DNA from: Tupaia tana
Lineage: Eukaryota; Chordata; Mammalia; Scandentia; Tupaiidae
Length of the DNA: 64,000 bases
Direction: 5' to 3'
Assembly: GCA_026018925.1 (NCBI GenBank)
Contig: JAKSZU010000013.1
Location: forward strand, 62,001-126,000
The notes beneath the pieces are model-generated. The model was given only the letters and a program-made list of their open reading frames with translations, made no database searches and had not been told where the DNA came from. The translations under genes and the position numbers were made by a program. This document shows, piece by piece, positions 1 through 48,797 of this stretch. Numbering within the stretch: the first letter of the stretch is position 1; the number at the start of each line of letters is the position of its first letter.

Positions 1-2404
1 CCTTTTTCCCAGGCAGGAGAGTTGAGCCATTCTCTGAGAAGATTCCACATGGATACTGGGAACTAGATATTTCAGGGCACAGGCGAAATGAAGATTTTCT
101 ACTCATAATTCAGCCTCCAGCAAGCAAAGCTAGTGTGGTAGGGAGCCCCTCTGGCCTTCTATCCCTGTCTCTGTGTCTCTGAGGTCTCTGTCTCTCTCTG
201 CGCCTGTCTCATTTTCTTTTGGTAATTTTTCCTTTTTACGATTTTTTTAAAGGTAGAATTTCTCTCTGGCTCTCAGCTCCATCTTTTGTTTTGTTAATAA
301 GCCCTTCTGCTGCTTTCTCCCAGACAGGAGAGTTGATCCATTCTCTGAGAAGATTCCACATGGATACTGGGAACTAGATATTTCAAAGCACAGGCGAAAT
401 GAAGATTTTCTACTCATAATTCAGCCTCCAGCAAGCAAAGCTAGTGTGGTAGGGAGCCCCTCTGGCCTTCTATCCCTGTCTCTGTGTCTCTGAGGTCTCT
501 GTCTCTCACTGCGCCTGTCTCCTCATTTTCTTTTGGTAATTTTTCCTTTTTACGATTTTTTTAAAGGTAGAATTTCTCTCTAGCTCTCAGCTTCCATCTT
601 TTGTTTTGTTAATAAGCCCTTCTGCTCCTTTCTCCCAGGCAGGAGAGTTGAGCCATTCTCTGAGAAGATTCCACATGGATACTGGGAACTAGATATTTCA
701 GGGCACAGGCGAAATGAAGATTTTCTACTCATAATTCAGCCTCCAGCAAGCAAAGCTAGTGTGGTAGGGAGCCCCTCTGGCCTTCTATCCCTGTCTCTGT
801 GTCTCTGAGGTCTCTGTCTCTCTCTGCGCCTGTCTCCTCATATTCTTTTGGTAATTTTTCCTTTTTACGATTTTTTTAAAGGTAGAATTTCTCTCTGGCT
901 CTCAGCTCCATCTCTTGTTTTGTTAATAAGCCCTTCTGCTCCTTTCTCCCAGGCAGGAGAGTTGAGCCATTCTCTGAGAAGATTCCACATGGATACTGGG
1001 AACTAGATATTTCAGGGCACAGGCGAAATGAAGATTTTCTACTCATAATTCAGCCTCCAGCAAGCAAAGCTAGTGTGGTAGGGAGCCCCTCTGGCCTTCT
1101 ATCCCTGTCTCTGTGTCTCTGAGGTCTCTGTCTCTCTCTGCGCCTGTCTCCTCTTTTTTTTTTTGGTAATTATTCCTTTTTACGATATTTTTAAAGGTAG
1201 AATTTCTCTCTGGCTCTCAGCTCCATCTTTTGTTTTGTTAATAAGCCCTTGTGCTGCTTTCTCCCAGGCAGGAGAGTTGAGCCATTCTCTGAGAAGATTC
1301 CACATGGATACTGGGAACTAGATATTTCAGGGCACAGGCGAAATGAAGATTTTCTACTCATAATTCAGCCTCCAGCAAGCAAAGCTAGTGTGGTAGGGAG
1401 CCCCTCTGGCCTTCTATCCCTGTCTCTGTGTCTCTGAGGTCTCTGTCTCTCTCTGCGCCTGTCTCCTCATTTTCTTTTGGTAATTTTTCCTTTTTACGAT
1501 TTTTTTAAAGGTAGAATTTCTCTCTGGCTCTCAGCTCCATCTTTTGTTTTGTTAATAAGCCCTTCTGCTGCTTTCTCCCATTCAGGAGAGTTGAGCCATT
1601 CTCTGAGAAGATTCCACATGGATACTGGGAACTAGTTATTTCAGGGCACAGGCGAAATGAAGATTTTCTACTCATAATTCAGCCTCCAGCAAGCAAAGCT
1701 AGTGTGGTAGGGAGCCCCTCTCGCCTTCTAACCCTGTCTCTGTGTCTCTGAGGTCTCTGTCTCTCTCTGGACCTGTCTCATTTTCTTTTGGTAATTTTTC
1801 CTTTTTACGATTTTTTTAAAGGTAGAATTTCTCTCTGGCTCTCAGCTCCATCTTTTGTTTTGTTAATAAGCCCTTCTGCTGCTTTCTCCCAGGCAGGAGA
1901 GTTGAGCCATTCTCTGAGAAGATTCCACATGGATACTGGGAACTAGATATTTCAGGGCACAGGCGAAATGAAGATTTTCTACTCATAATTCAGCCTGCAG
2001 CAAGCAAAGCTAGTGTGGTAGGGAGCCCCTCTGGCCTTCTATCCCTGTCTCTGTGTCTCCGAGGTCTCTGTCTCTCTCTGTGCCTGTCTCCTCATTTTTT
2101 TTTGGTAATTAATCCTTCTTACGATATTTTTAAAGGTAGAATTTCTCTCTGGCTCTCAGCTCCATCTTTTGTTTTGTTAATAAGCCCTTCTGCTGCTTTC
2201 TCCCAGGCAGGAGAGTTGAGCCATTCTCTGAGACGATTCCACATGGATACTGGGAACTAGATATTTCAGGGCACAGGCGAAATGAAGATTTTCTACTCAT
2301 AATTCAGCCTCCAGCAAGCAAAGCTAGTGTGGTAGGGAGCCCCTCTGGCCTTCTATCCCTGTCTCTGTGTCTCTGAGGTCTCTGTCTCTCTCTGCGCCTA
2401 TCTC

Positions 2405-5400
2405 CTCATTTTCTTTTGGTAATTTTTCCTTTTTACGATTTTTTTAAAGGTAGAATTTCTCTCTGGCTCTCAGCTCATCTTTTGTTTTGTTAATAAGCCC
2501 TTCTGCTCCTTTCTCCCAGGCAGGAGAGTTGAGCCATTCTCTGAGAAGATTCCACATGGATACTGGGAACTAGATATTTCAGGGCACAGGCGAAATGAAG
2601 ATTTTCTACTCATAATTCAGCCTCCAGCAAGCAAAGCTAGTGTGGTGGGAAGCCCCTCTGGCCTTCTATCCCTGTCTCTGTGTCTCTGAGGTCTCTGTCT
2701 CTCTCTGCGCCTGTCTCCTCATTTTCTTTTGGTAATTTTTCCTTTTTACGATTTTTTTAAAGGTAGAATTTCTCTCTGGCTCTCAGCTCCATCTTTTGTT
2801 TTGTTAATAAGCCCTTCTGCTCCTTTCTCCCAGGCAGGAGAGTTGAGCCATTCTCTGAGAAGATTCCACATGGATACTGGGAACTAGATATTTCAGGGCA
2901 CAGGCGAAATGAAGATTTTCTACTCATAATTCAGCCTCCAGCAAGCAAAGATAGTGTGGTAGGGAGCCCCTCTGGCCTTCTATCCCTGTCTCTGTGTCTC
3001 TGAGGTCTCTGTCTCTCTCTGCGCCTGTCTCATTTTCTTTTGGTAATTTTTCCTTTTTACGATTTTTTTAAAGGTAGAATTTCTCTCTGGCTCTCAGCTC
3101 CATCTTTTGTTTTGTTAATAAGCCCTTCTGCTGCTTTCTCCCAGGCAGGAGAGTTGATCCATTCTCTGAGAAGGTTCCACATGGATACTGGGAACTAGAT
3201 ATTTCAGGGCACAGGCGAAATGAAGATTTTCTACTCATAATTCAGCCTCCAGCAAGCATAGCTAGTGTGGTAGGGAGCCCCTCTGGCCTTCTATCCCTGT
3301 CTCTGTGTCTCTGAGGTCTCTGTCTCTCACTGCGCCTGTCTCCTCATTTTCTTTTGGTAATTTTTCCTTTTTACGATTTTTTTAAAGGTAGAATTTCTCT
3401 CTGGCTCTCAGCTCCATCTCTTGTTTTGTTAATAAGCACTTCTGCTCCTTTCTCCCAGGCAGGAGAGTTGAGCCATTCTCTGAGAAGATTCCACATGGAT
3501 ACTGGGAACTAGACATTTCAGGGCACAGGCGAAATGAAGATTTTCTACTCATAATTCAGCCTCCAGCAAGCAAAGCTAGTGTGGTAGGGAGCCCCTCTGG
3601 CCTTCTATCCCTGTCTCTGTGTCTCTGAGGTCTCTGTCTCTCTCTGTGCCTGTCTCCTCATTTTCTTTTGGGAATTTTTCCTTTTTACGATTTTTTTAAA
3701 GGTAGAATTTCTCTCTGGCTCTCAGCTCCATCTTTTGTTTTGTTAATAAGCCCTTGTGCTCCTTTCTCCCAGGCAGGAGAGTTGAGCCATTCTCTGAGAA
3801 GATTCCACATGGATACTGGGAACTAGATATTTCAGGGCACATGCGAAATGAAGATTTTCTACTCGTAATTCAGCCTCCAGCAAGCAAAGCTAGTGTGGTA
3901 GGGAGCCCCTCTGGCCTTCTATCCCTGTCTCTGTGTATCTGAGGTCTCTGTCTCTCTCTGTGCCTGCCTCCTCATTTTTTTTTTTGGTAATTATTCCTTT
4001 TTACGATATTTTTAAAGGTAGAATTTCTCTCTGGCTCTCAGCTCCATCTTTTGTTTTGTTAATAAGCCCTTCTGCTGCTTTCTCCCAGGCAGGAGAGTTG
4101 AGCCATTCTCTGAGACGATTCCACATGGATACTGGGAACTAGATATTTCAGGGCACAGGCGAAATGAAGATTTTCTACTCATAATTCAGCCTCCAGAAAG
4201 CAAAGCTAGTGTGGTAGGGAGCCCCTCTGGCCTTCTATCCCTGTCTCTGTGTCTCTGAAGTCTCTGTCTCTCTCTGCTCCTGTCTCCTCATTTTCTTTTG
4301 GTAATTTTTCCTTTTTACGATTTTTTTAAAGGTAGAATTTCTCTCTGGCTCTCAGCTCCATCTTTTATTTTCTTAATAAGCCCTTCTGCTCCTTTCTCCC
4401 AGGCAGGAGAGTTGAGCCATTCTCTGAGAAGATTCCACATGGATACTGGGAACTAGATATTTCAGGTCACAGGCGAAATGAAGATTTTCTACTCATAATT
4501 CAGCCTCCAGCAAGCAAAGCTAGTGTGGTAGGGAGCCCCTCTGGCCTTCTAACCCTGTCTCTGTGTCTTTGAGGTCTCTGTCTCTCTCTGGACCTGTCTC
4601 ATTTTCTTTTGGTAATTTTTCCTTTTTACGATTTTTTTAAAGGTAGAATTTTTCTCTGGCTCTCAGCTCATCTTTTGTTTTGTTAATAAGCCCTTCTGCT
4701 CCTTTCTCCCAGGCAGGAGAGTTGAGCCATTCTCTGAGAAGATTCCACATGGATACTGGGAACTAGATATTTCAGGGCACAGGCGAAATGAAGATTTTCT
4801 ACTCATAATTCAGCCTCCAGCAAGCAAAGCTAGTGTGGTGGGAAGCCCCTCTGGCCTTCTATCCCTGTCTCTGTGTCTCTGAGGTCTCTGTCTCTCTCTG
4901 CGCCTGTCTCCTCATTTTTTTTTGGTAATTTTTCCTTTTTACGATTTTTTTAAAGGTAGAATTTCTCTCTGGCTCTCAGCTCCATCTTTTGTTTTGTTAA
5001 TAAGCCCTTCTGCTCCTTTCTCCCAGGCAGGAGAGTTGAGCCATTCTCTGAGAAGATTCCACATGGATACTGGGAACTAGATATTTCAGGGCACAGGCGA
5101 AATGAAGATTTTCTACTCATAATTCAGCCTCCAGCAAGCAAAGATAGTGTGGTAGGGAGCCCCTCTGGCCTTCTATCCCTGTCTCTGTGTCTCTGAGGTC
5201 TCTGTCTCTCTCTGCGCCTGTCTCATTTTCTTTTGGTAATTTTTCCTTTTTACGATTTTTTTAAAGGTAGAATTTCTCTCTGGCTCCCAGCTCCATCTTT
5301 TGTTTTGTTAATAAGCCCTTCTGCTGCTTTCTCCCAGGCAGGAGAGTTGATCCATTCTCTGAGAAGATTCCACATGGATACTGGGAACTAGATATTTCAG

Positions 5401-8400
5401 GGCACAGGCGAAATGAAGATTTTCTACTCATAATTCAGCCTCCAGCAAGCATAGCTAGTGTGGTAGGGAGCCCCTCTGGCCTTCTATCCCTGTCTCTGTG
5501 TCTCTGAGGTCTCTGTCTCTCACTGCGCCTGTCTCCTCATTTTCTTTTGGTAATTTTTCCTTTTTACGATTTTTTTAAAGGTAGAATTTCTCTCTGGCTC
5601 TCAGCTCCATCTCTTGTTTTGTTAATAAGCACTTCTGCTCCTTTCTCCCAGGCAGGAGAGTTGAGCCATTCTCTGAGAAGATGCCACATGGATACTGGGA
5701 ACTAGACATTTCAGGGCACAGGCGAAATGAAGATTTTCTACTCATAATTCAGCCTCCAGCAAGCAAAGCTAGTGTGGTAGGGAGCCCCTCTGGCCTTCTA
5801 TCCCTGTCTCTGTGTCTCTGAGGTCTCTGTCTCTCTCTGTGCCTGTCTCCTCATTTTCTTTTGGGAATTTTTCCTTTTTACGATTTTTTTAAAGGTAGAA
5901 TTTCTCTTTGGCTCTCAGCTCCATCTTTTGTTTTGTTAATAAGCCCTTCTGCTCCTTTCTCCCAGGCAGGAGAGTTGAGCCATTCTCTGAGAAGATTCCA
6001 CATGGATACTGGGAACTAGATATTTCAGGGCACATGCGAAATGAAGATTTTCTACTCATAATTCAGCCTCCAGCAAGCAAAGCTAGTGTGGTAGGGAGCC
6101 CCTCTGGCCTTCTATCCCTGTCTCTGTGTCTCTGAGGTCTCTGTCTCTCTCTGTGCCTGTCTCCTCATTTTTTTTTTTTGGTAATTATTCCTTTTTACGA
6201 TATTTTTAAAGGTAGAATTTCTCTCTGGCTCTCAGCTCCATCTTTTGTTTTGTTAATAAGCCCTTCTGCTGCTTTCTCCCAGGCAGGAGAGTTGAGCCAT
6301 TCTCTGAGACGATTCCACATGGATACTGGGAACTAGATATTTCAGGGCACAGGCGAAATGAAGATTTTCTACTCATAATTCAGCCTCCAGCAAGCAAAGC
6401 TAGTGTGGTAGGGAGCCCCTCTGGCCTTCTATCCCTGTCTCTGTGTCTCTGAGGTCTCTGTCTCTCTCTGGACCTGTCTCATTTTCTTTTGGTAATTTTT
6501 CCTTTTTACGATTTTTTTAAAGGTAGAATTTCTCTCTGGCTCTCAGCTCCATCTTTTGTTTTGTTAATAAGCCCTTCTGCTGCTTTCTCCCAGGCAGGAG
6601 AGTTGAGCCATTCTCTGAGAAGATTCCACATGGATACTGGGAACTAGATATTTCAGGGCACAGGCGAAATGAAGATTTTCTACTCATAATTCAGCCTGCA
6701 GCAAGCAAAGCTAGTGTGGTAGGGAGCCCCTCTGGCCTTCTATCCCTGTATCTGTGTCTCTGAGGTCTCTGTCTCTCTCTACGCCTGTCTCCTCATTTTC
6801 TTTTGGTAATTTTTCCTTTTTACGATTTTTTTAAAGGTAGAATTTCTCTCTGGCTCTCAGCTCCATCTTTTGTTTTGTTAATAAGCCCTTCTGCTGCTTT
6901 CTCCCAGGCAGGAGAGTTGAGCCATTCTCTGAGACGATTCCACATGGATACTGGGAACTAGATATTTCAGGGCACAGGCGAAATGAAGATTTTCTACTCA
7001 TAATTCAGCCTCCAGCAAGCAAAGCTACTGTGGTAGGGAGCCCCTCTGGCCTTCTATCCCTGTCTCTGTGTCTCTGAGGTCTCTGTCTCTCTCTGCGCCT
7101 ATCTCCTCATTTTCTTTTGGTAATTTTTCCTTTTTACGATTTTTTTAAAGGTAGAAATTCTCTCTGGCTCTCAGCTCATCTTTTGTTTTGTTAATAAGCC
7201 CTTCTGCTCCTTTCTCCCAGGCAGGAGAGTTGAGCCATTCTCTGAGAAGATTCCACATGGATACTGGGAACTGTATATTTAAGGGCACAGGCGAAATGCA
7301 GATTTTCTACTCATAATTCAGCCTCCAGCAAGCAAAGCTAGTGTGGTAGGAAGCCCCTCTGGCCTTCTATCCCTGTCTCTGTGTCTCTGAGGTCTCTGTC
7401 TATCTCTGCGCCTGTCTCCTCATTTTCTTTTGGTAATTTTTCATTTTTACGATTTTTTTAAAGGTAGAATTTCTCTCTGGCTCTCAGCTCCATCTTTTGT
7501 TTTGTTAATAAGCCCTTCTGCTCCTTTCTCCCAGGCAGGAGAGTTGAGCCATTCTCTGAGAAGTTTCCACATGGATACTGGGAACTAGATATTTCAGGGC
7601 ACAGGCGAAATGAAGATTTTCTACTCATAATTCAGCCTCCAGCAAGCAAAGCTAGTGTGGTAGGGATCCCCTCTGGCCTTCTATCCCTGTCTCTGTGTCT
7701 CTGAGGTCTCTGTCTCTCTCTGCGCCTGTCTCATTTTCTTTTGGTAATTTTTCCTTTTTACGATTTTTTTAAAGGTAGAATTTCTCTCTGGCTCTCAGCT
7801 CCATCTCTTGTTTTGTTAATAAGCCCTTCTGCTCCTTTCTCCCAGGCAGGAGAGTTGATCCATTCTCTGAGAAGATTCCACATGGATACTGGGAACTAGA
7901 TATTTCAGGGCACAGGCGAAATGAAGATTTTCTACTCATAATTCAGCCTCCAGCAAGCATAGCTAGTGTGGTAGGGAGCCCCTCTGGCCTTCTATCCCTG
8001 TCTCTGTGTCTCTGAGGACTCTGCCTCTCACTGCACCTGTCTCCTCATTTTCTTTTGGTAATTTTTCCTTTTTACGATTTTTTTAAAGGTAGAATTTCTC
8101 TCTGGCTCTCAGCTCCATCTCTTGTTTTGTTAATAAGCCCTTCTGCTCCTTTCTCCCAGGCAGGAGAGTTGAGCCATTCTCTGAGAAGATTCCACATGGA
8201 TACTGGGAACTAGACATTTCAGGGCACAGGCGAAATGAAGATTTTCTACTCATAATTCAGCCTCCAGCAAGCAAAGCTAGTGTGGTAGGGATCCCCTCTG
8301 GCCTTCTATCCCTGTCTCTGTGTCTCTGAGGTCTCTGTCTCTCTCTGTGCCTGTCTCCTCATTTTCTTTTGGTAATTTTTCCTTTTTACGATTTTTTTAA

Positions 8401-9990
8401 AGGTAGAATTTCTCTCTGGCTCTCAGCTCCATCTTTTGTTTTGTTAATAAGCCCTTCTGCTCCTTTCTCCCATGCAGGAGAGTTGAGCCATTCTCTGAGA
8501 AGATTCCACATGGATACTGGGAACTAGATATTTCAGGGCACATGCGAAATGAAGATTTTCTACTCATAATTCAGCCTCCAGCAAGCAAAGCTAGTGTGGT
8601 AGGGAGCCCCTCTGGCCTTCTATCCCTGTCTCTGTGTTTCTGAGGTCTCTGTCTCTCTCTGTGCCTGTCTCCTCATTTTTTTTTTTGGTAATTATTCCTT
8701 TTTACGATATTTTCAAAGGTAGAATTTCTCTCTGGCTCTCAGCTCCATCTTTTGTTTTGTTAATAAGGCCTTCTGCTGCTTTCTCCCAGGCAGGAGAGTT
8801 GAGCCATTCTCTGAGACGATTCCACATGGATACTGGGAACTAGATATTTCAGGGCACAGGCGAAATGAAGATTTTCTACTCATAATTCAGCCTCCAGCAA
8901 GCAAAGCTAGTGTGGTAGGGAGCCCCTCTGGCCTTCTATCCCTGTCTCTTTGTCTCTGAGGTCTCTGTCTCTCTCTGGACCTGTCTCATTTTCTTTTGGT
9001 AATTTTTCCTTTTTACGATTTTTTTAAAGGTAGAATTTCTCTCTGGCTCTCAGCTCCATCTTTTGGTTTGTTAATAAGCCCTTCTGCTGCTTTCTCCCAG
9101 GCAGGAGAGTTGAGCCATTCTCTGAGAAGATTCCACATGGATACTGGGAACTAGATATTTCAGGGCACAGGCGAAATGAAGATTTTCTACTCATAATTCA
9201 GCCTCCAGCAAGCAAAGCTAGTGTGGTAGGGAGCCCCTCTGGCCTTCTATCCCTGTCTCTGTGTCTCTGAGGTCTCTGTCTCTCTCTACGCCTGTCTCCT
9301 CATTTTCTTTTGGTAATTTTTCCTTTTTACGATTTTTTTAAAGGTAGAATTTCTCTCTGGCTCTCAGCTCCATCTTTTGTTTTGTTAATAAGCCCTTCTG
9401 CTCCTTTCTCCCAGGCAGGAGAGTTGAGCCATTCTCTGAGAAGATTCCACATGGATACTGGGAACTAGATATTTCAGGGCACATGCGAAATGAAGATTTT
9501 CTACTCATAATTCAGCCTCCAGCAAGCAAAGCTAGTGAGGTAGGGAGCCCCTCTGGCCTTCTATCCCTGTCTCTGTGTCTCTGAGTTCTCTGTCTCTCTC
9601 TGTGCCTGTCTCCTCATTTTTTTTTGGTAATTATTCCTTCTTACGATATTTTTAAAGGTAGAATTTCTCTCTGGCTCTCAGCTCCATCTTTTGTTTTGTT
9701 AATAAGCCCTTCTGCTGCTTTCTCCCAGGCAGGAGAGTTGAGCCATTCTCTGAGACGATTCCACATGGATACTGGGAACTAGATATTTCAGGGCACAGGC
9801 GAAATGAATATTTTCTACTCATAATTCAGCCTCCAGCAAGCAAAGCTAGTGTGGTAGGGAGCCCCTCTGGCCTTCTATCCCTGTCTCTGTGTCTCTGAGG
9901 TCTCTGTCTCTCTCTGCGCCTATCTCCTCATTTTCTTTTGGTAATTTTTCCTTTTTACGATTTTTTTAAAGGTAGAATTTCTCTCTGGCT
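2405..9990 (+). repeat. Higher-order blocks of 7-9 satellite units, at least three copies
   Basis: Rare unit variants recur in the same order. The short variant CAGCTCATC is at about 2,468, 4,661, 7,169 and 9,990. GTGGTGGGAAGCC is at 2,641 and 4,834. TAGACATTTC is at 3,512, 5,705 and 8,212. CACATGCG is at 3,838, 6,031 and 8,539. The offsets are 2,193 (7 units), then about 2,508 (8 units), then about 2,821 (9 units). Successive blocks gained or lost a whole unit, which points to unequal exchange. Block edges are approximate. Confidence 0.8.
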
Positions 9991-10074
9991 CTCAGCTCAT
10001 CTTTTGTTTTGTTAATAAGCCCTTCTGCTCCTTTCTCCCAGGCAGGAGTGTTGAGCCATTCTCTGAGAAGGTTC

Positions 10075-13000
10075 CACATGGATACTGGGAACTAGATATT
10101 TCAGGGCACAGGCGAAATGAAGATTTTCTACTCATAATTCAGCCTCCAGCAAGCAAAGCTAGTGTGGTAGGGAGCCCCTCTGGCCTTCTATCCCTGTCTC
10201 TGTGTCTCTGAGGTCTCTGTCTCTCTCTGCGCCTGTCTCCTCATTTTCTTTTGGTAATTTTTCCTTTTTACGATTTTTTTAAAGGTAGAATTTCTCTCTG
10301 GCTCTCAGCTCCATCTTTTGTTTTGTTAATAAGCCCTTCTGCTCCTTTCTCCCAGGCAGGAGAGTTGAGCCATTCTCTGAGAAGATTCCACATGGATACT
10401 GGGAACTAGATATTTCAGGGCACAGGCGAAATGAAGATTTTCTACTCATAATTCAGCCTCCAGCAAGCAAAGCTAGTGTGGTAGGGAGCCCCTCTGGCCT
10501 TCTATCCCTGTCTCTGTGTCTCTGAGGTCTCTGTCTCTCTCTGCGCCTGTCTCCTCATTTTCTTTTGGTAATTTTTCCTTTTTACGATTTTTTTAAAGGT
10601 AGAATTTCTCTCTGGCTCTCAGCTCCATCTTTTGTTTTGTTAATAAGCCCTTCTGCTCCTTTCTCCCAGGCAGGAGAGTTGATCCATTCTCTGAGAAGAT
10701 TCCACATGGATACTGGGAACTAGATATTTCAGGGCACAGGCGAAATGAAGATTTTCTACTCATAATTAAGCCTCCAGGAATCAAAGTTAGTGTGGTAGGG
10801 AGCCCCTCTGGCCTTCTATCCCTGTCTCTGTGTCTCTGAGGTCTCTGTCTCTCACTGCGCCTGTCTCCTCATTTTCTTTTGGTAATTTTTCCTTTTTACG
10901 ATTTTTTTAAAGGTAGAATTTCTCTCTGCCTCTCAGCTCCATCTCTTGTTTTGTTAATAAGCACTTCTGCTCCTTTCTCCCAGGCAGGAGAGTTGAGCCA
11001 TTCTCTGAGAAGATTCCACATGGATACTGGGAACTAGATATTTCAGGGCACAGGCGAAATGAAGATTTTCTACTCATAATTCAGCCTCCAGCAAGCAAAG
11101 CTAGTGTGGTAGGGAGCCCCTCTGGCCTGCTATCCCTGTCTCTGTGTCTCTGAGGTCTCTGTCTCTCTCTGTGCCTGTCTCCTCATTTTCTTTTGGTAAT
11201 TTTTCCTTTTTACGATTTTTTTAAAGGTAGAATTTCTCTCTGGCTCTCAGCTCCATCTTTTGTTTTGTTAATAAGCCCTTCTGCTCCTTTCTCCCAGGCA
11301 GGAGAGTTGAGCCATTCTCTGAGAAGATTCCACATGGATACTGGGAACTAGATATTTCAGGGCACATGCGAAATGAAGATTTTCTACTCATAATTCAGCC
11401 TCCAGCAAGCAAAGCTAGTGTGGTAGGGAGCCCCTCTGGCCTTCTATCCCTGTCTCTGTGTCTCTGAGGTCTCTGTCTCTCTCTGTGCCTGTCTCCTCAT
11501 TTTTTTTTTGGTAATTATTCCTTTTTACGATATTTTTAAAGGTAGAATTTCTCTCTGGCTCTCAGCTCCATCTTTTGTTTTGTTAATAAGCCCTTCTGCT
11601 GCTTTCTCCCAGGCAGGAGAGTTGAGCCATTCTCTGAGAAGATTCCACATGGATACTGGGAACTAGATATTTCAGGGCACAGGCGAAATGAAGATTTTCT
11701 ACTCATAATTCAGCCTCCAGCAAGCAAAGCTAGTGTGGTAGGGAGCCCCTCTGGCCTTCTATCCCTGTCTCTGTGTCTCTGAGGTCTCTGTCTCTCTCTG
11801 CGCCTGTCTCCTCATTTTCTTTTGGTAATTTTTCCTTTTTACGATTTTTTTAAAGGTAGAATTTCTCTCTGGCTCTCAGCTCCATCTTTTGTTTTGTTAA
11901 TAAGCCCTTCTGCTCCTTTCTCCCAGGCAGGAGAGTTGAGCCATTCTCTGAGAAGATTCCACATGGATACTGGGAACTAGATATTTCAGGGCACAGGCGA
12001 AATGAAGATTTTCTACTCATAATTCAGCCTCCAGCAAGCAAAGCTAGTGTGGTAGGGAGCCCCTCTGGCCTTCTATCCCTGTCTCTGTGTCTCTGAGGTC
12101 TCTGTCTCTCTCTGCGCCTGTCTCCTCATTTTCTTTTGGTAATTTTTCCTTTTTACGATTTTTTTAAAGGTAGAATTTCTCTCTGGCTCTCAGCTCCATC
12201 TTTTGTTTTGTTAATAAGCCCTTCTGCTGCTTTCTCCCAGGCAGGAGAGTTGAGCCATTCTCTGAGAAGATTCCACATGGATACTGGGAACTAGATATTT
12301 CAGGGCACAGGCGAAATGAAGATTTTCTACTCATAATTCAGCCTCCAGCAAGCAAAGCTAGTGTGGTAGGAAGCCCCTCTGGCCTTCTATCCCTGTCTCT
12401 GTGTCTCTGAGGTCTCTCTGTCTCTCTGCACCTGTCTCCTCATTTTCTTTTGGTAATTTTTACTTTTTACGATTTTTTTAAAGGTAGAATTTCTCTCTGG
12501 CTCTCAGCTCCATCTTTTGTTTTGTTAATAAGCCCTCCTGCTCCTTTCTCCCAGGCAGGAGAGTTGAGCCATTCTCTGAGAAGATTCCACGTGGATACTG
12601 GGAACTAGATATTTCAGGGCACAGGCGAAATGAAGATTTTCTACTCATAATTCAGCCTGCAGCAAGCATACCTAGTGTGGTAGGGAGCCCCTCTGGCCTT
12701 CTATCCCTGTCTCTGTGTCTCTGAGGTCTCTCTGTCTCTCTGCACCTGTCTCCTCATTTTCTTTTGGTAATTTTTCCTTTTTACGATTTTTTTAAAGGTA
12801 GAATTTCTCTCTGCCTCTCAGCTCCATCTCTTGTTTTGTTAATAAGCACTTCTGCTCCTTTCTCCCAGGCAGGAGAGTTGAGCCATTCTCTGAGAAGATT
12901 CCACATGGATACTGGGAACTAGATATTTCAGGGCACAGGCGAAATGAAGATTTTCTACTCATAATTCAGCCTCCAGCAAGCAAAGCTAGTGTGGTAGGGA

Positions 13001-28749: not shown

Positions 28750-31700
28750 CGCCTGTCTCCTCATTTTCTTTTGGTAATTTTTCCTTTTTACGATTTTTTT
28801 AAAGGTAGAATTTCTCTCTGGCTCTCAGCTCCATCTTTTGTTTTGTTAATAAGCCCTTCTGCTCCTTTCTCCCAGGCAGGAGAGTTGAGCCATTCTCTGA
28901 GAAGATTCCACATGGATACTGGGAACTAGATATTTCAGGGCACAGGCGAAATGAAGATTTTCTACTCATAATTCAGCCTCCAGCAAGCAAAGCTAGTGTG
29001 GTAGGGAGCCCCTCTGGCCTTCTATCCCTGTCTCTGTGTCTCTGAGGTCTCTGTCTCTCTCTGCGCCTGTCTCCTCATTTTTTTTTGGTAATTTTTCCTT
29101 TTTACGATTTTTTTAAAGGTAGAATTTCTCTCTGGCTCTCAGCTCCATCTTTTGTTTTGTTAATAAGCCCTTCTGCTGCTTTCTCCCAGGCAGGAGAGTT
29201 GAGCCATTCTCTGAGAAGATTCCACATGGATACTGGGAACTAGATATTTCAGGGCACAGGCGAAATGAAGATTTTCTACTCATAATTCAGCCTCCAGCAA
29301 GCAAAGCTAGTGTGGTAGGGAGCCCCTCTGGCCTTCTATCCCTGTCTCTGTGTCTCTGAGGTCTCTGTCTCTCTCTGCGCCTGTCTCCTCATTTTCTTTT
29401 GGTAATTTTTCCTTTTTACGATTTTTTTAAAGGTAGAATTTCTCTCTGGCTCTCAGCTCCATCTTTTGTTTTGTTAATAAGCACTTCTGCTCCTTTCTCC
29501 CAGGCAGGAGAGTTGAGCCATTCTCTGAGAAGATTCCACATGGATACTGGGAACTAGATATTTCAGGGCACAGGCGAAATGAAGATTTTCTACTCATAAT
29601 TCAGCCTCCAGCAAGCAAAGCTAGTGTGGTAGGGAGCCCCTCTGGCCTTCTATCCCTGTCTCTGTGTCTCTGAGGTCTCTGTCTCTCTCTGTGCCTGTCT
29701 CCTCATTTTCTTTTGGTAATTTTTCCTTTTTACGATTTTTTTAAAGGTAGAATTTCTCTCTGGCTCTCAGCTCCATCTTTTGTTTTGTTAATAAGCCCTT
29801 CTGCTCCTTTCTCCCAGGCAGGAGAGTTGAGCCATTCTCTGAGAAGATTCCACATGGATACTGGGAACTAGATATTTCAGGGCACATGCGAAATGAAGAT
29901 TTTCTACTCATAATTCAGCCTCCATCAAGCAAAGCTAGTGTGGTAGGGAGCCCCTCTGGCCTTCTATCCCTGTCTCTGTGTCTCTGAGGTCTCTGTCTCT
30001 CTCTGTGCCTGTCTCCTCATTTTTTTTTTTGGTAATTTTTCCTTTTTACGATTTTTTTAAAGGTAGAATTGCTCTCTGGCTCTCAGCTCCATCTTTTGTT
30101 TTGTTAATAAGCCCTTCTGCTCCTTTCTCCCAGGCCGGAGAGTTGAGCCATTCTCTGAGAAGGTTCCACATGGATACTGGGAACTAGATATTTCAGGGCA
30201 CAGGCGAAATGAAGATTTTCTACTCATAATTCAGCCTCCAGCAAGCAAAGCTAGTGTGGTAGGGAGCCCCTCTGGCCTTCTATCCCTGTCTCTGTGTCTC
30301 TGAGGTCTCTGTCTCTCTCTGCGCCTGTCTCCTCATTTTCTTTTGGTAATTTTTCCTTTTTACGATTTTTTTAAAGGTAGAATTTCTCTCTGGCTCTCAG
30401 CTCATCTTTTGTTTTGTTAATAAGCCCTTCTGCTGCTTTCTCCCAGGCAGGAGAGTTGAGCCATTCTCTGAGAAGATTCCACATGGATACTGGGAACTAG
30501 ATATTTCAGGGCACATGCGAAATGAAGATTTTCTACTCATAATTCAGCCTCCAGCAAGCAAAGCTAGTGTGGTAGGGAGCCCCTCTGGCCTTCTATCCCT
30601 GTCTCTGTGTCTCTGAGGTCTCTGTCTCTCTCTGCGCCTGTCTCCTCATTTTCTTTTGGTAATTTTTCCTTTTTACGATTTTTTTAAAGGTAGAATTTCT
30701 CTCTGGCTCTCAGCTCCATCTTTTGTTTTGTTAATAAGCCCTTCTGCTGCTTTCTCCCAGGCAGGAGAGTTGAGCCATTCTCTGAGAAGATTCCACATGG
30801 ATACTGGGAACTAGATATTTCAGGGCACAGGCGAAATGAAGATTTTCTACTCATAATTCAGTCTCCAGCAAGCAAAGCTAGTGTGGTAGGAAGCCCCTCT
30901 GGCCTTCTATCCCTGTCTCTGTGTCTCTGAGGTCTCTGTCTCTCTCTGCACCTGTCTCCTCATTTTCTTTTGGTAATTTTTACTTTTTACGATTTTTTTA
31001 AAGGTAGAATTTCTCTCTGGCTCTCAGCTCCATCTTTTGTTTTGTTAATAAGCCCTTCTGCTGCTTTCTCCCAGGCAGGAGAGTTGAGCCATTCTCTGAG
31101 AAGATTCCACATGGATACTGGGAACTAGATATTTCAGGGCACAGGCGAAATGAAGATTTTCTACTCATAATTCAGCCTGCAGCAAGCATACCTAGTGTGG
31201 TAGGGAGCCCCTCTGGCCTTCTATCCCTGTCTCTGTGTCTCTGAGGTCTCTGTCTCTCTCTGCGCCTGTCTCCTCATTTTCTTTTGGTAATTTTTCCTTT
31301 TTACGATTTTTTTAAAGGTAGAATTTCTCTCTGGCTCTCAGCTCCATCTTTTGTTTTGTTAATAAGCCCTTCTGCTCCTTTCTCCCAGGCAGGAGAGTTG
31401 AGCCATTCTCTGAGAAGATTCCACATGGATACTGGGAACTAGATATTTCAGGGCACAGGCGAAATGAAGATTTTCTACTCATAATTCAGCCTCCAGCAAG
31501 CAAAGCTAGTGTGGTAGGGAGCCCCTCTGGCCTTCTATCCCTGTCTCTGTGTCTCTGAGGTCTCTGTCTCTCTCTGCGCCTGTCTCATTTTCTTTTGGTA
31601 ATTTTTCCTTTTTACGATTTTTTTAAAGGTAGAATTTCTCTCTGGCTCTCAGCTCCATCTTTTGTTTTGTTAATAAGCCCTTCTGCTCCTTTCTCCCAGG

Positions 31701-34700
31701 CAGGAGAGTTGATCCATTCTCTGAGAAGATTCCACATGGATACTGGGAACTAGATATTTCAGGGCACAGGCGAAATGAAGATTTTCTACTCATAATTCAG
31801 CCTCCAGCAAGCAAAGCTAGTGTGGTAGGGAGCCCCTCTGGCCTTCTATCCCTGTCTCTGTGTCTCTGAGGTCTCTGTCTCTCTCTGCTCCTGTCTCCTC
31901 ATTTTCTTTTGGTAATTTTTACTTTTTACGATTTTTTTAAAGGTAGAATTTCTCTCTGGCTCTCAGCTCCATCTTTTGTTTTGTTAATAAGCACTTCTGC
32001 TCTTTTCTCCCAGGCAGGAGAGTTGAGCCATTTTCTGAGAAGATTCCACATGGCTACTGGGAACTAGATATTTCAGGGCACAGGCGAAATGAAGATTTTC
32101 TACTCATAATTCAGCCTCCAGCAAGCAAAGCTAGTGTGGTAGGGAGCCCCTCTGGCCTTCTATCCCTGTCTCTGTGTCTCTGAGGTCTCTGTCTCTCTCT
32201 GCGCCTGTCTCCTCATTTTCTTTTGGTAATTTTTCCTTTTTACGATTTTTTTAAAGGTAGAATTTCTCTCTGGCTCTCAGCTCCATCTTTTGTTTTGTTA
32301 ATAAGCCCTCCTGCTCCTTTCTCCCAGGCAGGAGAGTTGAGCCATTCTCTGAGAAGATTCCACATGGATACTGGGAACTAGATATTTCAGGGCACAGGCG
32401 AAATGAAGATTTTCTACTCATAATTCAGCCTCCAGCAAGCAAAGCTAGTGTGGTAGGGAGCCCCTCTGGCCTTCTATCCCTGTCTCTGTGTCTCTGAGGT
32501 CTCTGTCTCTCTCTGCGCCTGTCTCCTCATTTTCTTTTGGTAATTTTTCTTTTTACGATTTTTTTAAAGGTAGAATTTCTCTCTGGCTCTCAGCTCCATC
32601 TTTTGTTTTGTTAATAAGCCCTTCTGCTCCTTTCTCCCAGGCAGGAGAGTTGAGCCATTCTCTGAGAAGATTCCACATGGATACTGGGAACTAGATATTT
32701 CAGGGCACAGGCGAAATGAAGATTTTCTACTCATAATTCAGCCTCCAGCAAGCAAAGCTAGTGTGGTAGGGAGCCCCTCTGGCCTTCTATCCCTGTCTCT
32801 GTGTCTCTGAGGTCTCTGTCTCTCTCTGCGCCTGTCTCCTCATTTTCTTTTGGTAATTTTTCCTTTTTACGATTTTTTTAAAGGTAGAATTTCTCTCTGG
32901 CTCTCAGCTCCATCTTTTGTTTTGTTAATAAGCCCTTCTGCTCCTTTCTCCCAGGCAGGAGAGTTGAGCCATTCTCTGAGAAGATTCCACATGGATACTG
33001 GGAACTAGATATTTCAGGGCACAGGCGAAATGAAGATTTTCTACTCATAATTCAGCCTCCAGCAAGCAAAGCTAGTGTGGTAGGGAGCCCCTCTGGCCTT
33101 CTATCCCTGTCTCTGTGTCTCTGAGGTCTCTGTCTCTCTCTGCGCCTGTCTCCTCATTTTCTTTTGGTAATTTTTCCTTTTTACGATTTTTTTAAAGGTA
33201 GAATTTCTCTCTGGCTCTCAGCTCCATCTTTTGTTTTGTTAATAAGCCCTTCTGCTCCTTTCTCCCAGGCAGGAGAGTTGAGCCATTCTCTGAGAAGATT
33301 CCACATGGATACTGGGAACTAGATATTTCAGGGCACAGGCGAAATGAAGATTTTCTACTCATAATTCAGCCTCCAGCAAGCAAAGCTAGTGTGGTAGGGA
33401 GCCCCTCTGGCCTTCTATCCCTGTCTCTGTGTCTCTGAGGTCTCTGTCTCTCTCTGCGCCTGTCTCCTCATTTTCTTTTGGTAATTTTTCCTTTTTACGA
33501 TTTTTTTAAAGGTAGAATTTCTCTCTGGCTCTCAGCTCCATCTTTTGTTTTGTTAATAAGCCCTTCTGCTCCTTTCTCCCAGGCAGGAGAGTTGAGCCAT
33601 TCTCTGAGAAGATTCCACATGGATACTGGGAACTAGATATTTCAGGGCACAGGCGAAATGAAGATTTTCTACTCATAATTCAGCCTCCAGCAAGCAAAGC
33701 TAGTGTGGTAGGGAGCCCCTCTGGCCTTCTATCCCTGTCTCTGTGTCTCTGAGGTCTCTGTCTCTCTCTGCACCTGTCTCCTCATTTTCTTTTGGTAATT
33801 TTTCCTTTTTACGATTTTTTTAAAGGTAGAATTTCTCTCTGGCTCTCAGCTCCATCTTTTGTTTTGTTAATAAGCCCTTCTGCTCCTTTCTCCCAGGCAG
33901 GAGAGTTGAGCCATTCTCTGAGAAGATTCCACATGGATACTGGGAACTAGATATTTCAGGGCACAGGCGAAATGAAGATTTTCTACTCATAATTCAGCCT
34001 GCAGCAAGCAAAGCTAGTGTGGTAGGGAGCCCCTCTGGCCTTCTATCCCTGTCTCTGTGTCTCTGAGGCCTCTGTCTCTCTCTGCGCCTGTCTCATTTTC
34101 TTTTGGTAATTTTTCCTTTTTACGATTTTTTTAAAGGTAGAATTTCTCTCTGGCTCTCAGCTCCATCTTTTGTTTTGTTAATAAGCCCTTCTGCTGCTTT
34201 CTCCCAGGCAGGAGAGTTGATCCATTCTCTGAGAAGATTCCACATGGATACTGGGAACTAGATATTTCAGGGCACAGGCGAAATGAAGATTTTCTACTCA
34301 TAATTCAGCCTCCAGCAAGCAAAGCTAGTGTGGTAGGGAGCCCCTCTGGCCTTCTATCCCTGTCTCTGTGTCTCTGAGGTCTCTGTCTCTCTCTGCGCCT
34401 GTCTCCTCATTTTCTTTTGGTAATTTTTCCTTTTTACGATTTTTTTAAAGGTAGAATTTCTCTCTGGCTCTCAGCTCCATCTTTTGTTTTGTTAATAAGC
34501 CCTTCTGCTCCTTTCTCCCAGGCAGGAGAGTTGAGCCATTCTCTGAGAAGATTCCACATGGATACTGGGAACTAGATATTTCAGGGCACAGGCGAAATGA
34601 AGATTTTCTACTCATAATTCAGCCTCCAGCAAGCAAAGCTAGTGTGGTAGGAAGCCCCTCTGGCCTTCTATCCCTGTCTCTGTGTCTCTGAGGTCTCTGT

Positions 34701-37700
34701 CTCTCTCTGCGCCTGTCTCCTCATTTTCTTTTGGTAATTTTTCCTTTTTACGATTTTTTTAAAGGTAGAATTTCTCTCTGGCTCTCAGCTCCATCTTTTG
34801 TTTTGTTAATAAGCCCTTCTGCTCCTTTCTCCCAGGCAGGAGAGTTGAGCCATTCTCTGAGAAGATTCCACATGGATACTGGGAACTAGATATTTCAGGG
34901 CACAGGCGAAATGAAGATTTTCTACTCATAATTCAGCCTCCAGCAAGCAAAGCTAGTGTGGTAGGAAGCCCCTCTGGCCTTCTATCCCTGTCTCTGTGTC
35001 TCTGAGGTCTCTGTCTCTCTCTGCGCCTGTCTCCTCATTTTCTTTTGGTAATTTTTCCTTTTTACGATTTTTTTAAAGGTAGAATTTCTCTCTGGCTCTC
35101 AGCTCCATCTTTTGTTTTGTTAATAAGCCCTTCTGCTCCTTTCTCCCAGGCAGGAGAGTTGAGCCATTCTCTGAGAAGATTCCACATGGATACTGGGAAC
35201 TAGATATTTCAGGGCACAGGCGAAATGAAGATTTTCTACTCATAATTCAGCCTCCAGCAAGCAAAGCTAGTGTGGTAGGGAGCCCCTCTGGCCTTCTATC
35301 CCTGTCTCTGTGTCTCTGAGGTCTCTGTCTCTCTCTGCGCCTGTCTCCTCATTTTCTTTTGGTAATTTTTCCTTTTTACGATTTTTTTAAAGGTAGAATT
35401 TCTCTCTGGCTCTCAGCTACATCTTTTGTTTTGTTAATAAGCCCTTCTGCTCCTTTCTCCCAGGCAGGAGAGTTGAGCCATTCTCTGAGAAGATTCCACA
35501 TGGATACTGGGAACTAGATATTTCAGGGCACAGGCGAAATGAAGATTTTCTACTCATAATTCAGCCTCCAGCAAGCAAAGCTAGTGTGGTAGGGAGCCCC
35601 TCTGGCCTTCTATCCCTGTCTCTGTGTCTCTGAGGTATCTGTCTCTCTCTGCTCCTGTCTCCTCATTTTCTTTTGGTAATTTTTCCTTTTTACGATTTTT
35701 TTAAAGGTAGAATTTCTCTCTGGCTCTCAGCTCCATCTTTTGTTTTGTTAATAAGCCCTTCTGCTGCTTTCTCCCAGGCAGGAGAGTTGAGCCATTCTCT
35801 GAGAAGATTCCACATGAATACTGGGAACTAGATATTTCAGGGCACAGGCGAAATGAAGATTTTCTACTCATAATTCAGCCTCCAGCAAGCAAAGCTAGTG
35901 TGGTAGGGAGCCCCTCTGGCCTTCTATCCCTGTCTCTGTGTCTCTGAGGTCTCTGTCTCTCTCTGCGCCTGTCTCCTCATTTTCTTTTGGTAATTTTTCC
36001 TTTTTACGATTTTTTTAAAGGTAGAATTTCTCTCTGGCTCTCAGCTCCATCTTTTGTTTTGTTAATAAGCCCTTCTGCTCCTTTCTCCCAGGCAGGAGAG
36101 TTGAGCCATTCTCTGAGAAGATTCCACATGGATACTGGGAACTAGATATTTCAGGGCACAGGCGAAATGAAGATTTTCTACTCATAATTCAGCCTCCAGC
36201 AAGCAAAGCTAGTGTGGTAGGAAGCCCCTCTGGCCTTCTATCCCTGTCTCTGTGTCTCTGAGGTCTCTGTCTCTCTCTGCGCCTGTCTCATTTTCTTTTG
36301 GTAATTTTTCCTTTTTACGATTTTTTTAAAGGTAGAATTTCTCTCTGGCTCTCAGCTCCATCTTTTGTTTTGTTAATAAGCCCTTCTGCTCCTTTCTCCC
36401 AGGCAGGAGAGTTGAGCCATTCTCTGAGAAGATTCCACATGGATACTGGGAACTAGATATTTCAGGGCACAGGCGAAATGAAGATTTTCTACTCATAATT
36501 CAGCCTCCAGCAAGCAAAGCTAGTGTGGTAGGGAGCCCCTCTGGCCTTCTATCCCTGTCTCTGTGTCTCTGAGGTCTCTGTCTCTCTCTGCGCCTGTCTC
36601 CTCATTTTCTTTTGGTAAGTTTTCCTTTTTACGATTTTTTTAAAGGTAGAATTTCTCTCTGGCTCTCAGCTCCATCTTTTGTTTTGTTAATAAGCCCTTC
36701 TGCTCCTTTCTCCCAGGCAGGAGAGTTGAGCCATTCTCTGAGAAGATTCCACATGGATACTGGGAACTAGATATTTCAGGGCACAGGCGAAATGAAGATT
36801 TTCTACTCATAATTCAGCCTCCAGCAAGCAAAGCTAGTGTGGTAGGGAGCCCCTCTGGCCTTCTATCCCTGTCTCTGTGTCTCTGAGGTCTCTGTCTCTC
36901 TCTGCGCCTGTCTCCTCATTTTCTTTTGGTAATTTTTCCTTTTTACGATTTTTTTAAAGGTAGAATTTCTCTCTGGCTCTCAGCTCCATCTTTTGTTTTG
37001 TTAATAAGCCCTTCTGCTCCTTTCTCCCAGGCAGGAGAGTTGAGCCATTCTCTGAGAAGATTCCACATGGATACTGGGAACTAGATATTTCAGGGCTCAG
37101 GCGAAATGAAGATTTTCTACTCATAATTCAGCCTCCAGCAAGCAAAGCTAGTGTGGTAGGGAGCCCCTCTGGCCTTCTATCCCTGTCTCTGTGTCTCTGA
37201 GGTCTCTGTCTCTCTCTGCGCCTGTCTCCTCATTTTCTTTTGGTAATTTTTCCTTTTTACGATTTTTTTAAAGGTAGAATTTCTCTCTGGCTCTCAACTC
37301 CATCTTTTGTTTTGTTAATAAGCACTTCTGTTCCTTTCTCCCAGGCAGGAGAGTTGAGCCATTCTCTGAGAAGATTCCACATGGATACTGGGAACTAGAT
37401 ATTTCAGGGCACAGGCGAAATGAAGATTTTCTACTCATAATTCAGCCTCCAGCAAGCAAAGCTAGTGTGGTAGGGAGCCCCTCTGGCCTTCTATCCCTGT
37501 CTCTGTGTCTCTGAGGTCTCTGTCTCTCTCTGCGCCTGTCTCCTCATTTTCTTTTGGTAATTTTTCCTTTTTACGATTTTTTTTAAAGGTAGAATTTCTC
37601 TCTGGCTCTCAGCTCCATCTTTTGTTTTGTTAATAAGCCCTTCTGCTCCTTTCTCCCAGGCAGGAGAGTTGATCCATTCTCTGAGAAGATTCCACATGGA

Positions 37701-38622
37701 TACTGGGAACTAGATATTTCAGGGCACAGGCGAAATGAAGATTTTCTACTCATAATTCAGCCTCCAGCAAGCAAAGCTAGTGTGGTAGGGAGCCCCTCTG
37801 GCCTTCTATCCCTGTCTCTGTGTCTCTGAGGTCTCTGTCTCTCTCTGCACCTGTCTCCTCATTTTCTTTTGGTAATTTTTCCTTTTTACGATTTTTTTAA
37901 AGGTAGAATTTCTCTCTGGCTCTCAGCTCCATCTTTTGTTTTGTTAATAAGCCCTTCTGCTCCTTTCTCCCAGGCAGGAGAGTTGAGCCATTCTCTGAGA
38001 AGATTCCACATGGATACTGGGAACTAGATATTTCAGGGCACAGGCGAAATGAAGATTTTCTACTCATAATTCAGCCTCCAGCAAGCAAAGCTAGTGTGGT
38101 AGGCAGCCCCTCTGGCCTTCTATCCCTGTCTCTGTGTCTCTGAGGTCTCTGTCTCTCTCTGTGCCTGTCTCCTCATTTTCTTTTGGTAATTTTTCCTTTT
38201 TACGATTTTTTTAAAGGTAGAATTTCTCTCTGGCTCTCAGCTCCATCTTTTGTTTTGTTAATAAGCCCTTCTGCTCCTTTCTCCCAGGCAGGAGAGTTGA
38301 GCCATGCTCTGAGAAGATTCCACATGGATACTGGGAACTAGATATTTCAGGGCACAGGCGAAATGAAGATTTTCTACTCATAATTCAGCCTCCAGCAAGC
38401 AAAGCTAGTGTGGTAGGGAGCCCCTCTGGCCTTCTATCCCTGTCTCTGTGTCTCTGAGGTCTCTGTCTCTCTCTGCGCCTGTCTCCTCATTTTCTTTTGG
38501 TAATATTTCCTTTTTACGATTTTTTTAAAGGTAGAATTTCTCTCTGGCTCTCAGCTCCATCTTTTGTTTTGTTAATAAGCCCTTCTGCTCCTTTCTCCCA
38601 GGCAGGAGAGTTGAGCCATTCT
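28750..38622 (+). repeat. Uniform right part of the satellite, adjoining L1
   Basis: About 31 units lie close to one consensus. The subtype with TAATTATTCC and ACGATATTTTT, frequent from 1,165 to about 27,540, is absent here. Remaining variants are single substitutions or the recurrent 3-bp loss in the CTCCTCATTTT segment (31,585, 34,092, 36,288). No block-scale duplication was evident by eye, though near-identical units would hide one. Confidence 0.7.
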
Positions 38623-38887
38623 ATTTTGTGATTTTTTTCTTTAAAGAAAAAAAAAAGAAAAGCAATTATAATTTTTTATTTTTTTGTCTTTTTTCTCTCT
38701 TTTTATTGTTGTTTCTCTCTCTCTTTTTCATTTTCCTTTTTCTTGTCTCTCCACGCAATATCTACTGAATCTGCTGCACCAGCGATCACTTCAGAACGGC
38801 AATCCGATTCTAGAACACCTCTGTCTGCTTGCTCCTGAACATTGAGGCTTAACTTCAAGAATTTGAAAGAAACACGCCATTCATCAG
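38623..38887 (+). promoter_or_regulatory. L1-A 5' leader between the satellite and ORF1
   Basis: The first ~125 bp are T- and CT-rich. The rest (38,753-38,887) aligns with the leader of L1-E at 61,710-61,825: shared blocks include GAACGGCAA, CACCTCT, TGCTCCTGAAC and ACTTCAAGAAT, ending just before the ORF1 ATG. This is the layout of monomer-type L1 promoters as in mouse: tandem monomers, a short unique tether, then ORF1. Promoter activity is inferred. Confidence 0.7.
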
Positions 38888-39888
38888 ATGACAAGAAATC
38901 ACCGTCGGATCACGAGAAATATGGGAAAACGAGAAAATACCTCTCCTCCAATGGAAAAGAGTAACTCTCCTTCATCCACAAACAGTTCGGTGAAAGTCAT
39001 GGAAATGTCTGATAAGGAATTTAGAGCATTCATAATGTCGAAGCTAACAGAGATGGAAGAAAAGAGAGATAATGAACTGCTAAAGAGAAAGGAGAAAGAA
39101 GTTGCCGAGTTCCAGGAGATGAGGAAATTCTTGCAAGATCTAAAAGAGGAATTACACACTTTACAAAAGACTCAAACGGAACTGCTAGAGATCAAGTCTA
39201 TAATAAAGAAGTCAGAATCTCCCTTGAAAGTATTAAAAGCAGACTAGATCATTCAGAAAATAGAATCTCAGATGTAGAAGAGAAAATGGCTGGCTTAGAA
39301 AAGTCCACCACGAAGACTGAGAAAATGGCTCAAAAATTTGAGAATGATATGCGAGAAGTACTGGATACCATCAAACGTCCAAATATCCGGATAATTGGCA
39401 TTCCAGAAGGTGAAGAGACCCATAAGGGCATTGATAATCTATTCCATGAAATCCTGCAAGAAAACTTTCCAAACCTAGAGAGGCATTCGAAGATCCAGTC
39501 CCAGGAAATACAAAGGACCCCAAATAGAAGCAACCCAAGAAGATCTTCTCCAAGACACATTATAGCCAGGTTGACCAAAACCGCAGACAAAGACAAGATA
39601 CTAAGATTGGCAAGAGAGAAACATCAAGTTACCTACAAAGGACATCCCATCAGGCTAACAGCAGATCTCTCATCGGAAACAATGCAAGCGAGGAGAGAAT
39701 GGGAAAATATATTCAAAGTGTTACGAGAGAAACAGTTTCAGCCAAGAATACTGTACCCGGCAAGATTATCTTTCAGGTGGGAAGAAAAGACAAGAACATT
39801 CTCAGATAAACAAAACCTGAAAGAATTTACCAGCACCAGACCAGATCTCCAAGAAGTTCTCAAGGGTGTGCTGTATCAAGAAAATTAA
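38888..39888 (+). pseudogene. L1-A ORF1 (ORF1p, RNA-binding chaperone), one frameshift
   Basis: L1 ORF1p is the trimeric RNA-binding protein of the L1 ribonucleoprotein. The start is the ATG encoding MTRNHRRITRN, shared with L1-E. About 333 conceptual residues are present, close to the usual length for mammalian L1 ORF1p. A polar N-terminus (1-40) is followed by a charged coiled coil (about 45-135). The RRM begins at IRIIGIP (166-172), with RHIIARL at 222-228. The C-terminal domain (about 242-332) includes REKHQVTYKGHPIRL and QARREWENIF. A single-base indel near 39,195-39,215, at the end of the coiled-coil coding region, shifts the frame, so the first piece stops at 39,247 and the second is open from 39,286 to the stop. 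It is otherwise clean and hence fairly young. Family assignment is certain; whether the frameshift is real or a sequencing error cannot be told. Confidence 0.93.
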
Positions 39889-48782: not shown

Positions 48783-48797
48783 AAAAAGGTTATTCAT
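48783..48797. repeat. Right target-site duplication of SINE-1
   Basis: It is an exact copy of 48,501-48,515. The L1-C reverse transcriptase coding region resumes after it. Confidence 0.92.

Follow-up and report, generated by a model that had tools for sequence, protein, structure and literature searches.

Mouse L1 retrotransposons of the Tf, A and Gf types carry tandem promoter monomers followed by an unrepeated tether and open reading frame (ORF) 1, and their transcription starts within the units; the youngest subgroup has 3-4 monomers on average, with more than 10 at seven of 5,765 loci (available parts of PMC9022269 and PMC10620060). HAL1 elements, according to the accessible portion of PMC5753468, are derived from L1, contain ORF1 only and have several origins in mammals. 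Satellites that share L1 sequence include the common cetacean satellite and PROsat of Phodopus roborovskii, and the RPCS satellite of Ctenomys is listed as derived from a long terminal repeat (LTR) (PMC6947457 and PMC9659126, sections available). Here we describe a stretch of 64,000 nucleotides from Tupaia tana (hereafter the window), in which an array of a 314-bp satellite runs into an L1 derivative with ORF1 only, a half-L1. The satellite very probably consists of amplified monomers from the 5' untranslated region (5'UTR) of this young, dispersed element, seeded by retrotransposition and expanded in place.

The layout corresponds to that of monomeric mouse L1 as given in those excerpts (tandem units, tether, ORF1 and within-unit starts, which are putative here); the likeness is one of organisation. 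It differs from the mouse elements described there in having no ORF2 and in comprising ~320 units, against an average of 3-4. As stated for HAL1 in the portion cited, the element is L1-derived and contains ORF1 only; it is dispersed in this form. In contrast to HAL1, its scored copies are 98-100% identical to the one in the window, its 5'UTR is monomeric and it lies beside satellites; our literature search found no HAL1 with a monomeric 5'UTR beside satellites. The cetacean satellite and PROsat match the L1 3' end or ORF2 in the sections cited, whereas here the 5'UTR repeats form the unit and the parent element stands at array edges. RPCS, as listed there, likewise comes from the regulatory end of a retroelement, but from a retroviral LTR rather than an L1 5'UTR. 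No satellite from an L1 5'UTR appears among the L1-derived satellites in the available sections of PMC9659126 and PMC6947457, and a literature search likewise found none, which is not proof of absence. In the accessible part of PMC7644632, on sloth satellites with a 2,292-bp unit, HAL1 is mentioned in the reference list only. Since none was found from an L1 5'UTR, we take a monomeric half-L1 that founds satellites to be new, built on known kinds (monomeric L1, HAL1, satellite).

The array and the element at its edge

The window corresponds to positions 62,001-126,000 of a 107-Mb contig (C242) in a genome assembly of 2.95 Gb. The array and the adjoining element comprise:

1..38,622, plus strand: 314-bp satellite array (TRF, genome search and unit-by-unit cut), every unit in sense orientation to the ORF1 at 38,888
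38,591..38,622, plus strand: final partial unit (consensus 1-32); consensus 33-72 and the GC-rich box are absent, with TTCT at the break
38,623..38,793, plus strand: T-rich leader, part of a 388-bp query matched in full at 40/40 scored places
38,794..38,887, plus strand: tether between units and ORF1, common to the relatives L1-E and L1-F
38,888..39,888, plus strand: half-L1 ORF1 with RNA recognition motif (RRM) and double-stranded RNA-binding domain (dsRBD)-like domains; frame interrupted in the window copy, uninterrupted in the relative P0001
39,889..40,897, plus strand: 3' region straight after ORF1, without ORF2; contiguous at 99% elsewhere, collinear in L1-F, ending in (AAAT)n

Tandem Repeats Finder (TRF) reported a single array at 1-38,622 with period 314, 123.1 copies and 97% matches, its edge 265 bp from the ORF1 ATG. 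A preliminary description, made from the letters of the window, had the satellite passing in one orientation through a 265-bp leader into an L1 ORF1, and this was borne out. It had also put the array at no fewer than ~123 copies, and the array proved longer still, since it extends leftwards to the first position of the contig (C242:1-100,622, ~320 units). Every 10-kb piece of C242:1-60,000 is wholly array, in unchanged orientation; within C242:60,001-61,500 the array is indicated by unit matches of the genome search (e.g. at 60,180 and 61,122).

When 312 units of this array were cut singly, they measured 310-318 bp, with a mean identity of 98.6% to the consensus and 97.4% between pairs. Best-partner units are most often 49 and 20 units apart, which points to duplications of larger blocks having remodelled the array. 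Identity to the consensus is 99.5% in the 20 units nearest ORF1, compared with 98.6% overall, so the edge on the ORF1 side has not decayed; the inner bin at 45-50 kb is likewise high (99.3%). The C242 array is long, head-to-tail and homogenised, with blocks of units duplicated, and is a satellite by these criteria.

The open frame at 39,076-39,888 matches Pfam Transposase_22 (E = 3.3e-33) and a dsRBD-like domain (E = 1.2e-23). Its closest protein relative, P0001 (96% identity over 84%), is annotated as a protein of Streptomyces narbonensis; the contig that bears it has 2,304 bases, near the length of a half-L1 body, and probably reflects animal DNA that contaminated a bacterial assembly. Scans of the unit core and ORF1 against bacterial and viral contig collections and plasmids gave no usable relative.

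Four ORF2 pieces taken from neighbouring L1s had no match in 38,888-40,900 of the window or in C242:126,001-156,000, around L1-F. A query spanning window positions 39,751-40,440 was matched contiguously, over at least 683 of 690 bases and at 99%, at 39 further of the 40 places scored (1,271 first-look candidates), and at three loci on contig C309 that were matched by both this and the leader query, the spacing equals that of the window within one base. The ~1-kb 3' region is closed by (AAAT)n at 40,863-40,897 (TRF). In four of four dispersed copies, the 3' end lies 2.27-2.34 kb past the leader start and carries an A-rich tail, and all four copies tested have words shared between the flanks (19, 17, 17 and 17 bp; target duplications), the leading few A of which may be tail. 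Taken together, the lack of an ORF2 match, the contiguous block of ORF1 and 3' region, and the short 3' ends indicate an ORF1-only half-L1, or HAL1-like, family. Judged by its sequence, the element beside the array is a half-L1, and the four dispersed copies tested bear the hallmarks of L1-type insertion, target duplication and an A-rich tail. The preliminary description had called it an L1: the L1-type ORF1 stands, a full L1 does not, and because ORF2 is absent the name should read half-L1 (HAL1-like).

Units upstream of the leader in dispersed copies

A 388-bp query comprising the leader, the tether and the start of ORF1 gave 1,393 first-look candidates, the best 40 of which were scored. All 40 matched in full (one from base 2) at 98-100%; the window itself is among them, leaving 39 others in which the upstream DNA was read. 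The T-rich leader is thus a genuine part of the half-L1 5'UTR. A similarity of the leader to the unit was considered and rejected (score 20; shuffles, mean 18 and maximum 37).

Units lie immediately 5' of the leader in 38 of the 39 dispersed copies, with matching stretches at 90-100%. The sole exception, L088, breaks off within the GC-rich box, and L083 has part of one unit only. The preliminary description had named the absence of other copies with the monomer next to ORF1 as a refutation of its proposal that the satellite is an expanded L1-type 5'UTR monomer array; such copies are the rule among those read, and the proposal is supported by them. They also bear on the idea that an L1 fragment merely came to lie beside an unrelated satellite, the match at 61.6 kb being random. 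We found no support for such a chance adjacency, which is refuted by the unit in 38/39 dispersed copies together with the core in L1-E, L1-F and 39 further places, and its probability is negligible.

The dispersed copies share a common arrangement. In addition to 314-bp units, 27 of the 38 contain short units of ~131 bp that end near position 141 and are usually outermost. The innermost unit ends at 58-80 in 35 of 38 copies, and at 100, 256 and 297 in L083, L089 and L092. Between it and the leader, a GC-rich box is present at least in part in 31 of the 39 copies; it is absent from L044, L051, L055, L083, L089, L092 (at most GGCGG), L095 and L096 (by eye). The full box reads CGCGCGGCGCGC-TTT-GCGCGCCGCGCG, with a fold of -28 kcal/mol; its perfect 12-bp hairpin is found in three of 39 copies and is imperfect or truncated in the rest.

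In one copy, L040, the outer unit piece is inverted with respect to the remainder of the 5'UTR, possibly a 5' inversion within the monomer region.

Positions of the 5' ends within the unit

Of the 39 copies, 28 allowed the 5' end to be located; in nine the units extend past the sequence read, L088 lacks a unit, and L040 contains the inverted piece. Twelve of the 28 begin at A28, the A in CCATTCT, and five at G35. For L039, the start at 35 given by the stricter alignment was counted (29 by BLAST). Four of the five copies beginning at G35 have a unit in which ATTC is deleted, with no intact CCATTCTCTG; conversely, among the six placed copies that have ATTC-deleted units only, none begins at A28 and four begin at G35. 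The remaining placed ends, apart from two taken up in the Discussion, are at 64 (three copies), 25 (two), 23, 31, 43 and 309. The motif CCATTCT matches the textbook initiator consensus, YYANWYY.

In 26 of the 28 copies the base preceding the 5' end is G, where about one third would be expected by chance (the alignment excludes the unit's own base). In the four copies read at both ends, this G also ends the target duplication. A simple untemplated cap base was therefore rejected as its source, since the target carries the G too; it could be accounted for by microhomology of one base with a cap-derived base, or by a preference in nicking.

Full-length mouse insertions tend to have their first base at within-monomer start sites that were confirmed by 5' rapid amplification of cDNA ends (5' RACE) (PMC10620060, part available). 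By that precedent, the phased 5' ends of the half-L1 copies are reasonably read as fossil transcription starts. CCATTCT is intact in 306 of the 312 units cut from the C242 array (98%), and this, with the phasing of the dispersed copies, supports a putative promoter activity of the units, so that those of the array may act as RNA polymerase II (Pol II) promoters.

Diverged relatives and the age of the core

Part of the unit is present in two diverged relatives, L1-E, within the window, and L1-F, at C242:136-146 kb, 37 kb downstream of the array edge. The features of L1-E are:

61,620..61,705, plus strand: single unit core (consensus 38-120) in the L1-E 5'UTR, 80% identity, E = 1.5e-15
61,732..61,825, plus strand: L1-E tether, by alignment to the array-flanking tether
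61,826..62,549, plus strand: L1-E ORF1, incomplete, 84% identical to the ORF1 at 38,888

The core of L1-E lies 26 bp before its tether, and tether and ORF1 are 84% like those flanking the array. As the preliminary description had noted, L1-E thus carries the satellite core by its own tether and ORF1; the description had also held that a match no better than chance here, with a best match of the satellite to an unrelated repeat, would refute its proposal, and the local score is 50, whereas none of 500 dinucleotide shuffles exceeded 22. In L1-F the core is 77.6% identical (E = 1e-15), and the element is collinear with window positions 38,782-40,897 in a single 2.1-kb block at 93.3%. Both relatives have the core alone, near the tether, without the pyrimidine-rich part of the unit. 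An ORF1 piece of another copy sits upstream of the L1-E core, so the 5' end of L1-E may be truncated, as may that of L1-F. A core-tether-ORF1 query from L1-E gave 5,705 first-look candidates; of the 40 that were scored, 39 are further places, known from their match to the query at 86-90%. Because the core is 20-22% diverged in L1-E and L1-F and units within sampled arrays differ by 0.1-3%, it seems to predate the arrays within the L1 lineage.

This apparent difference in age also argues against the converse order of events, in which a pre-existing 314-bp satellite was captured as a promoter by an L1 derivative and the arrays were the source. Such an origin could account for the pyrimidine-rich part of the unit, 183 bp that L1-E and L1-F lack and that have no known source, and for the presence of array sequence on at least 16 contigs. 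The core, however, was already on the tether of L1-E and L1-F, the units ending near 141 that occur in 27/38 dispersed copies are absent among the 312 cut C242 units, and the units of young arrays agree with those in dispersed copies: units of the C309 array are 99.3% identical to the ATTC-deleted class of such units. We consider capture of an older satellite improbable.

Other arrays in the genome

Five array edges carry a half-L1, ending in the same leader (C242, C309, C1189, C1197 and C419), and in four dispersed copies (L042, L048, L050 and L052) the long units continue to at least 3.8 kb before the leader. Spot checks showed array over C309:125.15-125.23 Mb, with a switch of orientation between 125.19 and 125.21 Mb, over 9-19 kb on C1197 and over 7-17 kb on C419; on C1189 (24.7 kb) the array continues to the contig end, ~21 kb. 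Array was found at 8/8 sampled spots on C638 (99.8 kb) and 10/10 on C387 (250.8 kb). Matches that recur at distances of kilobases point to arrays on C941 (in both orientations, 407-836 kb) and, starting at 125.126 Mb, on C309; match spacing also indicates them on C504, C480, C556, C399, C581, C422, C239 and C374. At least 16 contigs thus contain array sequence, either read directly or indicated by matches. Another ten, with one match or an adjacent two-unit match, are equally explicable as ordinary copies and were not counted as arrays.

Units near the edge are 99.7-99.9% alike within the C309, C1197 and C1189 arrays and 96.5-98.9% alike between arrays. The higher identity within arrays fits separate local expansions. 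Match spacings reveal longer-period duplication outside C242 as well, of 7.89 kb on C309 and ~17.66 kb on C941.

If long arrays were themselves retrotransposed, array size would reflect long transcripts. One pair of loci would suit such copying as RNA: L048 and L050, with at least 12 long units each, are two separate loci that are 99.8% alike over 3.86 kb. The orientation switches on C309 and C941 and the multi-kilobase repeated blocks better fit events at the DNA level, and 17 of the 28 placed copies begin at A28 or G35, mostly at most a few units from the leader. To our knowledge, an array of >100 kb is also longer than any known L1 RNA. Copying of whole arrays through RNA seems improbable, and expansion of the arrays in place is preferred.

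The first base of C242 already lies within the array, and some of the contigs with arrays are short (C638, 99.8 kb; C387, 250.8 kb; C1189, 24.7 kb), as might be expected if the array and its junction had arisen from collapsed or falsely joined repeats. The units differ from one another, however (97.4% mean pairwise), units stand directly before the same leader at 38 of 39 other places, and target duplications are present in all four copies tested at both ends, which makes an assembly artefact very unlikely indeed.

Other features of the window and the assembly

Between 51,430 and 59,660 the window holds ~8 kb in which degenerate telomere-like repeats, variants of CCCTAA/TTAGGG, run in either direction; the block looks like an old subtelomere or an interstitial telomeric block. 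Within it are a 369-bp tandem repeat (54,262-55,446) and, at 52,494-53,145, a GC-rich minisatellite with a unit of ~19-25 bp, which is open in several frames and probably non-coding. A repeat occurs at 48,516-48,787 and again, oppositely oriented and with 91.5% identity, at 60,442-60,706; by eye it is a short interspersed element (SINE) with a tRNA-like head, and the copy at 48,516-48,787 splits an L1 ORF2. On the minus strand, 63,060-63,200 resembles a retrocopy of an HMGN-type gene and may be one. Elsewhere in the assembly, a COX1 copy on a 230-Mb nuclear contig (C531:156655777-156657117) scores equal to the copy on C1198. The latter is probably the mitochondrial contig, and the C531 copy would either have entered the nuclear genome very recently or reflect a mix-up in the assembly.

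Discussion

The shared sequence, order and orientation of units and element, its dispersal, the absence of ORF2, the target duplications, the phasing of starts and the homogeneity of the arrays were all observed, and together they lead us to read the satellite as amplified half-L1 5'UTR. In the mechanism that we propose, an ordinary copy would consist of a few units, a partial unit, the usual GC-rich box, leader, tether, ORF1 and a 3' region with an A-rich tail. Its RNA would begin within a unit, at the initiator, and it would be inserted by L1-type target-primed reverse transcription, with ORF2 protein presumably supplied in trans by an autonomous L1. Every insertion would thereby bring a tandem seed of promoter units, and at some loci unequal exchange, together with segmental duplication, would enlarge the long units in place to arrays of between 7 and >100 kb.

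Several observations weigh against this reading or narrow it. The copies read are the 39 best-scoring among 1,393 candidates, a choice that favours young, complete ones, and the C1197 (L048) and C419 (L050) copies, given their near-identity over 3.86 kb, may be one event. The part of the unit beyond consensus 11-141, which is pyrimidine-rich and amounts to 183 bp, lacks a known source. With regard to the starts, two of the six placed copies with ATTC-deleted units begin at 50 and 298, neither A28 nor G35. The ATTC deletion, which removes CCATTCT, is present in 13/13 scored edge-proximal units in each of C309/L042, C1197/L048 and C419/L050, and in a 50.8-kb portion of C638 (~160 units) intact CCATTCTCTG was counted no more than 113 times; a promoter in every unit is therefore not general. 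In addition, the CpG at 200 reads TG or CA in 77 of 312 C242 units, compared with 13 and nine for the other two CpGs. Such decay would hint, weakly, at germline methylation and silencing.

A broader version of the proposal is that the retrotransposon sows satellites, most of its insertions bringing several tandem units primed for unequal exchange and so continuing to found arrays across the genome, and that arrays with intact initiators serve as extended stretches of Pol II starts, all in one sense, within heterochromatin that may be centromeric. We put this forward tentatively, as a possibility that we consider rather doubtful.

These findings bear on the old question of how satellites originate, as seeds, intermediates and full arrays are found side by side in one genome. 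Few-unit insertions, arrays of ~7-20 kb and an array of >100 kb make up a size series, with a mean unit identity of at least 96.5% between sampled arrays. The ATTC-deleted copies, set against the A28 and G35 starts, provide a natural test of the initiator. Transcription of the arrays, if it occurs, would make them satellites in which most units hold a start site. In Tupaia tana, the birth of a satellite from the 5' end of a mobile element is directly traceable.

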